Part shown: positions 6,741 to 7,791 of the stretch, one piece after another
Layout of the letters: every line of letters starts with the position of its first letter
Position numbering within the stretch: position 1 is the stretch's first letter
Notes under the pieces: model-generated
The model's database searches: none
Seen by the model: only the letters and a program-made list of their open reading frames with translations
What the model was told of the DNA's origin: nothing
Translations under genes and position numbers: made by a program
Assembly (NCBI GenBank): GCA_015709675.1
Contig: CP054182.1
Coordinates: forward strand, 2,893,448 to 2,957,447
Source: Ignavibacteriales bacterium
GTDB lineage: Bacteria > Bacteroidota > Ignavibacteria > Ignavibacteriales > Ignavibacteriaceae
Length of the DNA: 64,000 nt
Direction of reading: 5' to 3'

Positions 6741-6827
6741 CTGAAGGAGTCTTCGCAGGAATCACTTAGGAGAACCTCCGACCCGCTGATTATGAGTCAG
6801 CTGCGCTAATCAACTTAGCTAACTCAA
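6741..6827 (-). pseudogene. Broken tRNA copy with CAT anticodon arm (Met/Ile2-like)
   Basis: On the minus strand a perfect D stem GCTA/TAGC and a perfect anticodon stem GCTGA/TCAGC with loop CTCATAA (anticodon CAT) can be read. A T stem follows whose loop carries an insertion of about 20 nt. The acceptor strands do not pair. The T-loop insertion closely resembles the one in the Val-derived copies (CTTCGCAG then AGGAGAAC on the plus strand). Confidence 0.65.
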
Positions 6828-6838
6828 CAAAAACAAAA

Positions 6839-6862
6839 CAGCCCCGGATTTCTCCGAGGCTG
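6839..6862 (-). terminator. Array hairpin, GAAA loop, U-rich tail
   Basis: Minus-strand RNA pairs CAGCCTCGGA with TCCGGGGCTG (one U-G wobble) around a GAAA tetraloop, followed by TTTTGTTTTT. It lies after the Val-like copy at 6873-6967. Confidence 0.65.
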
Positions 6863-6872
6863 AATCTTCCTG

Positions 6873-6967
6873 TGGGGGCTGAAGGAGTCTTCGCAGAATC
6901 CCTTCGGGAGAACCCCGACCCTCTGCTTGTAAGTCCCGACGAGTCGGGGATCTAAACCAACTGAGTT
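6873..6967 (-). pseudogene. Degenerate tRNA-Val copy 1
   Basis: The 3' acceptor strand TGGGGGCT (plus strand), T stem and anticodon loop CTTGTAA match the intact tRNA-Val. There is an insertion in the T loop (TTCGCAGAATCCCTTCGGGAG). A hairpin with CCCGAC/GTCGGG arms and GAG loop replaces the 5' anticodon strand. The 5' acceptor strand is missing. Confidence 0.75.
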
Positions 6968-6985
6968 GACCGTTTTAAAACAAAA

Positions 6986-7009
6986 CAGCCCCGGATTTCT
7001 CCGAGGCTG
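6986..7009 (-). terminator. Array hairpin, GAAA loop, U-rich tail
   Basis: This has the same stem and GAAA loop as the hairpin at 6839, with one U-G wobble in minus-strand RNA, followed by TTTTGTTTT. It lies after Val-like copy 2. Confidence 0.65.
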
Positions 7010-7019
7010 AATCTTCTTG

Positions 7020-7114
7020 TGGGGGCTGAAGGAGTCTTCGCAGAATCCCTTTGGGAGAACCTCCGACCCTCAGCTTGTAAGTCCCGACGAGTCGGGATCT
7101 AAACCAACTGAGTT
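7020..7114 (-). pseudogene. Degenerate tRNA-Val copy 2
   Basis: This has the same structure as copy 1, with both the T-loop insertion (here CCCTTTGGGAG) and the CCCGAC-GAG-GTCGGG hairpin. One base of the anticodon-stem remnant has changed (CTCAGCTTG instead of CTCTGCTTG). Confidence 0.75.
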
Positions 7115-7128
7115 TATTTAAAACAAAA

Positions 7129-7152
7129 CAGCCCCGGATTTTTCCAGGGCTG
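7129..7152 (-). terminator. Array hairpin, AAAA loop, U-rich tail
   Basis: Minus-strand RNA pairs CAGCCCTGGA with TCCGGGGCTG. The wobble has moved to the neighbouring pair, the loop is AAAA instead of GAAA, and TTTTGTTTT follows. Confidence 0.6.
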
Positions 7153-7160
7153 AATTTTTG

Positions 7161-7255
7161 TGGGGGCTGAAGGAGTCTTCGCAGAATCCCTTCGGGAGAA
7201 CCTACGACCCTCTGCTTGTAAGTCCCGACAAGTTGGGATCTAAACCAACTGAGTT
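7161..7255 (-). pseudogene. Degenerate tRNA-Val copy 3
   Basis: This carries the T-loop insertion and a slightly decayed hairpin (CCCGAC-AAG-TTGGG). The T stem has one substitution (CCTACGAC). The 5' acceptor strand is absent. Confidence 0.75.
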
Positions 7256-7269
7256 TGTTTAAAACAAAA

Positions 7270-7293
7270 CAGCCCCGGATTTCTCCTAGGCTG
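7270..7293 (-). terminator. Array hairpin, GAAA loop, partly decayed stem
   Basis: Minus-strand RNA pairs CAGCCTAGGA with TCCGGGGCTG, giving one wobble and one A-G mismatch. The loop is GAAA and the tail TTTTGTTTT. Confidence 0.55.
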
Positions 7294-7301
7294 AATTTTT
7301 G

Positions 7302-7393
7302 TGGGGGCTGAAGGAGTCTTAGCAGAATCCCTTCGGGAGAACCTCAGACCCTCTGCTTGTAAGTCCCGACTGGTCGGGATCTAAACCAACTTA
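7302..7393 (-). pseudogene. Degenerate tRNA-Val copy 4
   Basis: This carries the T-loop insertion (with TTAGCAG in place of TTCGCAG) and the hairpin with TGG loop. It ends at CCAACTTA, so the D-loop end has diverged from the other copies. Confidence 0.75.
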
Positions 7394-7415
7394 ATGAACC
7401 CAATTTAAAACAAAA

Positions 7416-7439
7416 CAGCCCCGGATCTCTCCGAGGCTG
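7416..7439 (-). terminator. Array hairpin, GAGA loop, U-rich tail
   Basis: This has the same wobble-containing stem as the other array hairpins, but the tetraloop is GAGA, still of GNRA type. TTTTGTTTT follows. Confidence 0.65.
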
Positions 7440-7449
7440 AATCTTCATG

Positions 7450-7524
7450 TGGGGGCTGAAGGAGTCGAACCTCCGACCCTCTGCTTGTAAGTCCCGACGG
7501 GTCGGGATCTAAACCAACTGAGTT
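7450..7524 (-). pseudogene. Degenerate tRNA-Val copy 5 (no T-loop insertion)
   Basis: The first 42 bases (plus strand) are identical to the intact tRNA-Val, so the T arm is whole and uninterrupted. Only the CCCGAC-GGG-GTCGGG hairpin replacing the 5' anticodon strand and the lost 5' acceptor strand break it. It is the copy closest to the intact gene. Confidence 0.78.
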
Positions 7525-7542
7525 GACCGTTTTAAAACAAAA

Positions 7543-7566
7543 CAGCCTCGGATTTCTCCGAGGCTG
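7543..7566 (-). terminator. Terminator of tRNA-Gly/tRNA-Val transcript
   Basis: A perfect ten-base-pair stem (CAGCCTCGGA with TCCGAGGCTG) has a GAAA loop and is followed on the minus strand by TTTTGTTTT. It lies 14 nt after the intact tRNA-Val and is the likely ancestor of the array hairpins. Confidence 0.8.
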
Positions 7567-7580
7567 AATCTTCTTTCTTG

Positions 7581-7655
7581 TGGGGGCTGAAGGAGTCGAA
7601 CCTCCGACCCTCTGCTTGTAAGGCAGATGCTCTAAACCAACTGAGCTAAGCCCCC
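7581..7655 (-). tRNA. tRNA-Val (anticodon TAC)
   Basis: The minus strand starts GGGGGCTTAGCTCAG and ends AGCCCCCA. The acceptor pairs fully, the anticodon stem TCTGC/GCAGA encloses CTTACAA (anticodon UAC), and the T loop is TTCGACT. CCA is not encoded after the discriminator A. It follows tRNA-Gly by 63 nt and is probably co-transcribed with it. Confidence 0.95.
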
Positions 7656-7718
7656 TTATTTTTTCGAAAACAGATTAGAAATATATGGTTTCGGAATATA
7701 TTCTGCAAGTAATTTTTG

Positions 7719-7791
7719 AGCGAGTGACGGGATTCGAACCCGCGACCCTTAGCTTGGGAAGCTAATGCTCTACCAACTGAGCTACACTCGC
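7719..7791 (-). tRNA. tRNA-Gly (anticodon CCC)
   Basis: The minus strand starts GCGAGTGTAGCTCAG and ends CACTCGCT. The anticodon stem TTAGC/GCTAA encloses TTCCCAA, giving CCC. The T arm has GGTTCGAATC. CCA is not encoded. It is the first gene of the tRNA-Gly/tRNA-Val unit. Confidence 0.95.

Follow-up and report, generated by a model that had tools for sequence, protein, structure and literature searches.

Broken tRNA-Val copies in tandem in an Ignavibacteriales genome: probable gene-less units of a family of small GIY-YIG elements

How did a regular row of broken tRNA copies come to lie behind two intact tRNA genes? The row is in a 64,000-nucleotide stretch (the window) of the genome of an Ignavibacteriales bacterium (assembly GCA_015709675.1, contig CP054182.1; the genome is called G000 below). 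As judged by reading the sequence and from the mapped pieces, it spans positions 6741 to about 7526 of the window. It consists of six units on the minus strand, five derived from tRNA-Val and one a chimera of tRNA-Met(CAT) and tRNA-Val. Our favored answer, to which we give a probability of about 0.62, is that these are tandem, non-autonomous units, lacking an open reading frame (ORF), of a tRNA-parasitic, homing-type family of GIY-YIG elements. The family is apparently widespread and undescribed. It would parasitize tRNA genes, sometimes the gene for transfer-messenger RNA (tmRNA), and in G000 also 5S rRNA.

We found that the array is real and regular. ARAGORN, Tandem Repeats Finder (TRF) and the mapped positions bear out six units next to intact tRNA-Gly and tRNA-Val, as a preliminary description of the window had stated; all lie downstream of both genes and in the same orientation (Table 1). 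TRF gives a tandem period of 141 (score 995). The spacing from one 3' end to the next, from the intact tRNA-Val through unit 5, is 131, 148, 141, 141 and 147. The whole length of the unit is similar between units, and the array is not one of identical repeats and unique spacers, as in clustered regularly interspaced short palindromic repeats (CRISPR). The terminator hairpin of the intact tRNA-Val is copied behind each of units 1-5. No ORF of at least 80 amino acids was found in the units (128-148 bp). Mis-assembly is an unlikely source of the array because the genome is a single contig, the congener G001 has a related array, and isolate genomes hold comparable scarred copies.

The units carry two kinds of scar. 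In 5/5 Val units, a 16-nt palindromic hairpin, TCCCGACNNGTCGGGA, takes the place of the last part of the D-stem together with the 5' anticodon-stem strand; it is perfect in three of them and has one mismatch in units 3 and 5. A 20-nt insert, made of mini-hairpins of 11 and 9 nt, interrupts the T-loop at GGTTC^GACTCC (TTC^GA) in 5/6 units (units 2-6). It is imperfect in units 2 and 6, and unit 1 has none. Over 50 nt, the middle of unit 6 shares 94% identity with the tRNA-Met(cat) of the same genome; a Val-type insert and 3' end follow, and the join lies within GGGTCGGAGGTTC, a stretch common to both tRNAs. A join at such a shared stretch is a possible way for elements to switch isotype. The preliminary description had all units losing the 5' anticodon strand in the same way, which is true of the five Val units; the unit with the CAT anticodon keeps its whole anticodon arm, and it derives from a CAT tRNA in its middle only. 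The judgment that random decay would not leave such regular units holds so far; the terminator is duplicated with the units, and the copies carry hairpin scars.

We found a nuclease gene in the same setting at other loci. At the Met and Asn loci of G000, a GIY-YIG ORF of ~85 codons lies between the intact tRNA and a scarred copy. In G010 (L011) and G012 (L015), such an ORF has the intact tRNA-Val on one side and, on the other, a copy whose anticodon arm contains a hairpin, and in G010 an ORF-less Val copy with a T-loop insert comes after the ORF-bearing Val unit. The insert site TTC^GA is common to the window units and the gene-bearing elements of relatives. Pfam family PF01541 was recognized in 5/5 proteins tested (E 4e-15 to 4e-17; the Asn protein was not in this set), and Y, Y, G, R, H, E and K are invariant in 39 ORFs. 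The GIY-YIG catalytic domain is thus found in the gene-bearing relatives and not in the window array. The best profile matches in the PDB were UPF0213 (1zg2, 1ywl) and SLX1; I-TevI was also among them, weakly (E 0.002).

To describe these loci we used 115 PF01541 places among the matches listed, 6 from G000 and 109 from relatives; the small GIY-YIG ORF was found by its own profile in 112 of the 115. A tRNA lies within 100 bp of the ORF at 51/112 of these loci and within 1.5 kb at 60/112. In 60/60 of the latter, tRNA and ORF are on the same strand. At 55/60 loci, the far side of the ORF holds a broken copy of the neighboring tRNA, compared with 12/600 when tRNAs of other kinds were used as a control. 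The far-side copy is, as a rule, the 3' part of the tRNA if the ORF is downstream and the 5' part if it is upstream. A hairpin stem of at least 6 bp is in or beside 45/55 of these copies, compared with 106/550 random stretches of the same loci. The full element is a gene for a single-domain GIY-YIG protein of 80-90 residues on the strand of the tRNA, with the intact tRNA on one side and, on the other, a partial copy scarred by palindromic hairpins in the anticodon arm, T-loop or D-arm. The window array shares with it an intact RNA gene and co-oriented, hairpin-scarred partial copies.

A scan of named genomes with a Ser/Cys-type alignment gave a similar picture. Among the best 80 of 212 confirmed places (79 loci), a tRNA was within 300 bp at 67/79, on the same strand in 67/67, with a far-side copy in 57/67. 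Three of the other 12 loci have a tRNA at 588-646 bp, and nine have none, mostly because the contig ends there. Isolate hosts include Fulvivirga lutimaris, Litoribacter ruber, Tangfeifania diversioriginum, Pedobacter puniceum and Jiulongibacter sediminis. Among the hosts are also metagenome-assembled genomes of Ignavibacteriota, Balneolota, Chlorobiota, Calditrichota, Marinimicrobia, Verrucomicrobia, Omnitrophota and groups of the Candidate Phyla Radiation (CPR). A search with one Ser-type protein gave a single weak match in plasmids and none among phages or viral contigs.

The element is also found at tmRNA genes. Rfam models run on the 52 surveyed loci that lack a tRNA identified three tmRNAs, each with a GIY-YIG ORF behind it. 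At L158 (tmRNA at 1124-1488), the far side of the ORF holds a broken tmRNA copy (1754-1811) whose T-loop contains a 20-nt double hairpin, as tRNA copies do. No broken tmRNA copy was seen at the other two, L222 and L226.

Several of these elements are themselves tandem units. G002 has five 315-bp units at tRNA-Asp, each with an ORF, a tRNA piece, a hairpin, a tRNA 3' end and a terminator. G019 has five units of 450 bp at tRNA-Leu and three of 306 bp at tRNA-Ser. Mirror-image units stand in front of the tRNA at Ser in G002 (316 bp) and Arg in G019 (350 bp). The Ser(tga) array has two ORF-bearing units in the congener G001 and only ORF-less units in G000. Because ORF-bearing and ORF-less units occur in corresponding arrays (G001/G000) or one behind the other (G010), the window array is best seen, from its sequence, as a tandem run of the ORF-less form. 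Relatives also contain scarred copies of the same kind as those of the window. Two origins had been offered in the preliminary description: repeated tandem duplication, or copying of the tRNA and its terminator by a mobile element. This proposal is partly supported so far, since the units carry the duplicated terminator and relatives have tandem scarred copies with a nuclease gene in each unit; the hairpins, the T-loop inserts, the other arrays and the link to GIY-YIG genes had been missed.

We found that the scars recur at particular sites. By our reading, 71/74 insert junctions are at the T-loop, anticodon loop or D-arm. These 74 are junctions at which neighboring tRNA pieces have lost at most one tRNA base, tandem copies and two duplicated loci included; other scarred copies lose bases, as the window units do. 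The insert sites are common to different isotypes and phyla. In tRNA-Pro of G004, G011, G016 and G022, the whole anticodon arm is swapped for another hairpin.

The inserts keep their pairing. The 23 distinct inserts of 22 nt each form two tandem 4-bp hairpins with 3-nt loops, and 92.9% of base-pair cells pair. They covary: 31 cells are double-changed, compared with 6.7±2.0 after shuffling (0/500), and no slid register gave more than 4. This test used only the inserts of exactly 22 nt (all in the list), and its shuffles ignore relatedness. The first loop is GNA or ANA in 21/23; GNA triloops are unusually stable in DNA. TCGGGA, the right arm of the hairpin, is also part of the anticodon loop of tRNA-Pro(CGG), TTCGGGA (L142/L310, L321), and to judge from this likeness an inverted copy made at that loop might be the origin of the common TCCCGA...TCGGGA scar.

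The proteins fall into lineages that follow the tRNA. In a tree of the 112 listed ORFs, the RNA-linked genes cluster (9 changes, compared with a shuffled mean of 36.6), and the grouping is largely by tRNA identity in an alignment of few columns that leaves 52/108 inner branches open. The nearest protein neighbor (below 85% identity) is at a tRNA for the same amino acid in 106/122 cases (permuted mean 28.9, maximum 46) and with the same anticodon in 78/122 (permuted mean 11.7, maximum 25). Among the named loci, 27/57 nearest pairs cross phyla, and 16/27 of these share the amino acid. Copies of the small GIY-YIG ORF are under purifying selection: the pooled ratio of nonsynonymous to synonymous changes (pN/pS) is 0.24 over 33 pairs of neighboring ORF copies at 22 loci, some without a tRNA.

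Occupied and empty versions of one site were found beside yajQ. In the syntenic tRNA-Pro(cgg)-yajQ region, 6/16 co-oriented sites have scarred copies and the ORF, and 10/16 have neither on that strand. Of 31 yajQ loci examined, 13 had no tRNA-Pro(cgg), and G008 and G030, with the tRNA on the other strand, were left out. At the empty site of G023 the tRNA is 10 bp from yajQ, and the yajQ fragment is 86% identical to that of the occupied site in G004.

The window array is one of many in its own genome. The hairpin TCCCGACNNGTCGGGA, with at most one mismatch, occurs at 41 sites in the 4.21-Mb genome and at 0 in the reversed control, which excludes chance. By reading, 40 of the 41 fall within arrays of this kind or within a partial copy of an RNA gene; a strict count finds an RNA-gene 10-mer no more than 35 bp away at 37/41, compared with 17% of random window positions. 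We therefore rejected the possibility that a generic mobile palindrome of the genome accounts for the hairpin; the exception is at 1982351 (L070). Arrays with this hairpin are at tRNA-Lys(ttt), Ser(tga), Asn(gtt), Thr(tgt), Ser(cga), Met(cat), Pro(tgg) and Val(tac) and at 5S rRNA, and there is one orphan Ser copy. Broken copies were found at 10 of the 41 intact tRNA genes examined, including Ser(gga) and a second Met(cat), whose copies use other hairpins. With 5S this makes eleven places, a count that leaves out three further tRNA-like matches. At the ten tRNA loci, 68/70 fragments share the strand of the tRNA. The array may be upstream (Met, with six 5' copies), downstream (Val, 5S) or on both sides (Lys).

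Behind the 5S gene of the rrn operon (L074, G000:C1:3410500-3413500), the 3' part of 5S rRNA is repeated in three tandem units, which carry the hairpin TCCCGACNNGTCGGGA (at genome positions 3411647, 3411773 and 3411889) and a terminator; a PF01541 search found no GIY-YIG gene there. The orphan Ser-type scarred copy (L066, G000:C1:1039740) is ~10 kb from the tRNA-Ser(tga) array and adjoins a gene that reads like a putative transposase. Of the six PF01541 genes of G000, two lie beside tRNAs (Met and Asn), another lies among palindromes, two are parts of long proteins and the last is degenerate. The gene among palindromes (L116, G000:C1:644067) is surrounded by palindromes of the CTCGACTCCGCTCGGAG type, and no tRNA lies within 1.5 kb of it or of any of the 17 loci in its clade.

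Based on these results we suggest how the elements could spread; we infer their cleavage and mobility from patterns in the sequences. The nuclease would be expressed from the tRNA promoter and would break a cognate tRNA locus that lacks the element. Repair through tRNA homology would then copy the element in. One intact tRNA would always result, and the host would survive. With its scars, the spare copy would escape binding, cutting or processing as a tRNA. Unequal recombination between the direct repeats (tRNA pieces and terminator) could expand or contract the unit number or drop the ORF, giving arrays like that of the window.

Several observations weigh against this reading. Its weak point is self-targeting. 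The resident tRNA is unchanged: the intact tRNA-Val is identical (74/74 bases) in three relatives in which no broken copies were found (L006-L008). Its own sequence thus gives the resident gene no protection, and self-cutting must be avoided in some other way. Possibly the nuclease binds the tRNA sequence and cuts the flank: insertion would replace the flank beside the intact tRNA, and the scars would destroy binding in the copy that retains the native flank. Pfam found in the 5/5 proteins only GIY-YIG or weaker overlapping families and no separate DNA-binding domain, and UPF0213 and SLX1 as nearest structures give no hint of sequence-specific homing. No nuclease ORF is at the window locus, by the ORF list and the PF01541 search, and that search found no Val-type GIY-YIG gene in G000. 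Moreover, at 49/112 small GIY-YIG loci neither an intact tRNA nor a tmRNA is nearby; 4 of these hold tRNA fragments, leaving 45, and the tree puts 40 of the 49 in a separate part.

The 3' ends of the tRNAs give the favored reading little help as well. The T-stem of the broken copy equals that of the local tRNA in 22/41 parsed copies, and a compensated difference was found at one locus only, in G016; many rows scored as differing are misparses, with poorly paired stems. There is thus almost no trace of an imported foreign tRNA end, and we rejected the idea that every element imports its own 3' end. At the G016 locus (L316, tRNA-Pro), the copy beside the native flank has the T-stem GTAGG/CCTAT and the intact tRNA has GGAGG/CCTCT, a compensated pair that looks as if the functional 3' end had been replaced.

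Table 1. Positions in the window of the two intact tRNA genes, the six array units and their scars
Feature	Position	Strand	Basis
Intact tRNA-Gly(ccc), first gene of the run	7718..7791	-	ARAGORN, Rfam tRNA model
Intact tRNA-Val(tac), parent gene of units 1-5	7580..7655	-	ARAGORN, Rfam tRNA model
Terminator-like hairpin and T-rich tail behind intact tRNA-Val	7533..7566	-	sequence
Unit 1, tRNA-Val from D-arm: hairpin scar, intact T-arm, 3' end, terminator hairpin	7416..7526	-	
Unit 1 hairpin TCCCGACCCGTCGGGA in place of anticodon-stem 5' strand	7492..7507	-	
Unit 2 (Val)	7270..7396	-	
Unit 2 hairpin scar	7364..7379	-	
Unit 2 T-loop insert, double mini-hairpin, at GGTTC^GACTCC	7319..7338	-	
Unit 3 (Val)	7129..7257	-	
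Unit 3 hairpin scar, one mismatch	7223..7238	-	
Unit 3 T-loop insert	7178..7197	-	
Unit 4 (Val)	6986..7116	-	
Unit 4 hairpin scar	7082..7097	-	
Unit 4 T-loop insert	7037..7056	-	
Unit 5 (Val)	6839..6968	-	
Unit 5 hairpin scar, one mismatch	6934..6949	-	
Unit 5 T-loop insert	6890..6909	-	
Unit 6, chimera: middle from tRNA-Met(cat) with whole anticodon arm; T-loop insert and 3' end of Val type	6741..6829	-	
Unit 6 T-loop insert	6752..6771	-	

Some of the same observations might also indicate a structure-guided mini-transposon, which we consider doubtful. Here a nuclease like SLX1 or UPF0213 would recognize DNA hairpins and not tRNA sequence. The tRNA arms and the double mini-hairpins would be alternative hairpins of single-stranded DNA, with the element and its palindromes inserting at the tips, and the grouping of the proteins by isotype would reflect inheritance at one locus. 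The nearest PDB profiles fit this, as do inserts that are listed mostly in the loops of tRNA arms and keep their pairing and not their sequence. So does a GIY-YIG clade outside tRNA loci with exact 12-13-nt inverted repeats around the ORF (L127, L216, L227). However, isotype-grouped lineages cross phyla, which is easier if tRNA sequence is recognized, and most tRNA-linked loci have no long inverted repeats bracketing the ORF. For the latter reason we rejected flanking inverted repeats as a general feature of the ORF; repeats of at least 10 nt were commoner than expected (13, compared with 1.5), several of the 13 resembling terminator arms or tRNA. Two further observations concern GIY-YIG loci away from tRNA genes. 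The ORF of L127 seems, by reading, to interrupt another small gene, so that the ORF would be the loop of a hairpin; and L169 (G037) has three tandem GIY-YIG units at ~420-bp spacing with no tRNA and with GGATTCCTGCCTCCGCAGGAATGACAG-like palindromic repeats between them.

Three explanations without an active nuclease element fare worse. Ordinary tandem duplication of tRNA ends with their terminator, followed by decay and independent insertion of palindromes like repetitive extragenic palindromic (REP) sequences, would make the GIY-YIG genes mere passengers. Direct repeats between units suit slippage, and most G000 arrays have no ORF. We nevertheless find this quite improbable, because the strand and far-side rules hold against the control (55/60 and 12/600), the insert sites are the same across isotypes and phyla, the ORF copies are under purifying selection, and the G000 hairpin is all but confined to RNA-gene arrays (40/41; 37/41 in the strict count and 17% at random). 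It is very unlikely that the array makes functional RNAs, such as tRNA decoys or regulators. Co-orientation behind tRNA genes and the retained local hairpins would suit such a role, for which the transcribed repeats of E. coli rtT RNA are a precedent. However, units 1, 2, 3 and 5 fold with energies like those of shuffled sequences (z -0.3 to -0.9; intact tRNA-Val, z -2.9), ARAGORN recognized no unit as a tRNA, and the Rfam tRNA model found none at its gathering score or at E<=10 (150/223 candidates scored). If a tyrosine integrase had inserted islands one after another at its attachment site in a tRNA 3' end, repeated tRNA 3' ends would be left downstream of an intact gene, as seen here. We regard this origin as extremely unlikely: the units of 128-148 bp have no cargo or integrase gene between them, the scars replace the anticodon arm, and copies are also found on the 5' side of tRNAs and for 5S rRNA.

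The elements may belong to a categorically new class of mobile element, a view we hold only tentatively. Its members would be ~300-450 bp with the gene, sit at stable RNA genes in about ten or more phyla, and spread by means of a lone GIY-YIG domain in single-isotype lineages. Short palindromic double hairpins in the loops of the cloverleaf arms would mark each spare tRNA copy, and gene-less units would amplify into arrays such as that of the window. Because pairing is conserved and sequence is free, the shape of the DNA would be the recognized or protective feature.

The nearest described system is SegB of phages T4 and T6, a free-standing GIY-YIG endonuclease encoded beside tRNA genes (PMC2988022). 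According to a further paper, phage SegB drives tandem amplification of a tRNA segment through breaks and recombination, has no preference for tRNA isotype in phages, and spares its own genome in a manner described as an open question (PMC13096335). SegB and the elements described here share a GIY-YIG gene between or beside tRNA genes and the puzzle of self-sparing; the elements may also share the links of SegB to preferred inheritance of a tRNA region and to tandem amplification of a tRNA. They differ in that SegB is phage-borne, whereas these elements are chromosomal, encode 80-90 residues and group by tRNA identity; scarred partial tRNA copies and hairpin inserts are not mentioned for SegB in the available text. 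The window locus further departs from the Seg type in having no nuclease gene, as the related proteins do in having no separate DNA-binding domain. We found no description of chromosomal tRNA-GIY-YIG elements in open-licence PubMed Central (PMC) papers, in agreement with the initial statement that no named family matches the array.

Other known systems share single features. UPF0213 and SLX1 have the small GIY-YIG domain and are the closest solved structures by profile. SLX1, named in the PDB as a structure-specific endonuclease, has a role in repair; we know of no tie of either protein to tRNA genes. The repeats at E. coli tyrT (rtT) are tandem units of similar size behind a tRNA, each with its 3' end, but they hold ~19 nt of tRNA per unit at one locus and have no hairpin scars and no nuclease. 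Integrative elements and prophages at tRNA 3' ends likewise leave an intact tRNA and a partial copy; unlike these elements, they need an integrase, are far larger and leave no palindromic scars. REP sequences with their RAYT enzymes and the Rickettsia palindromic elements are also small mobile palindromes, but they use other enzymes and are not confined to copies of RNA genes.

If the favored reading is right, it would explain the regular, co-oriented arrays of pseudo-tRNAs that derive from a single tRNA. The link between SegB and tRNA genes would extend from phages to bacterial chromosomes, and the elements would be, to our knowledge, among the smallest autonomous mobile elements. Two puzzles would follow: how a nuclease specific for a single tRNA spares the host's own copy, and how hairpins conserved in structure come to sit in tRNA loops. 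Many bacterial tRNA genes would then carry a tiny selfish passenger, one that annotation would miss as a "GIY-YIG nuclease family protein" or as empty intergenic DNA.

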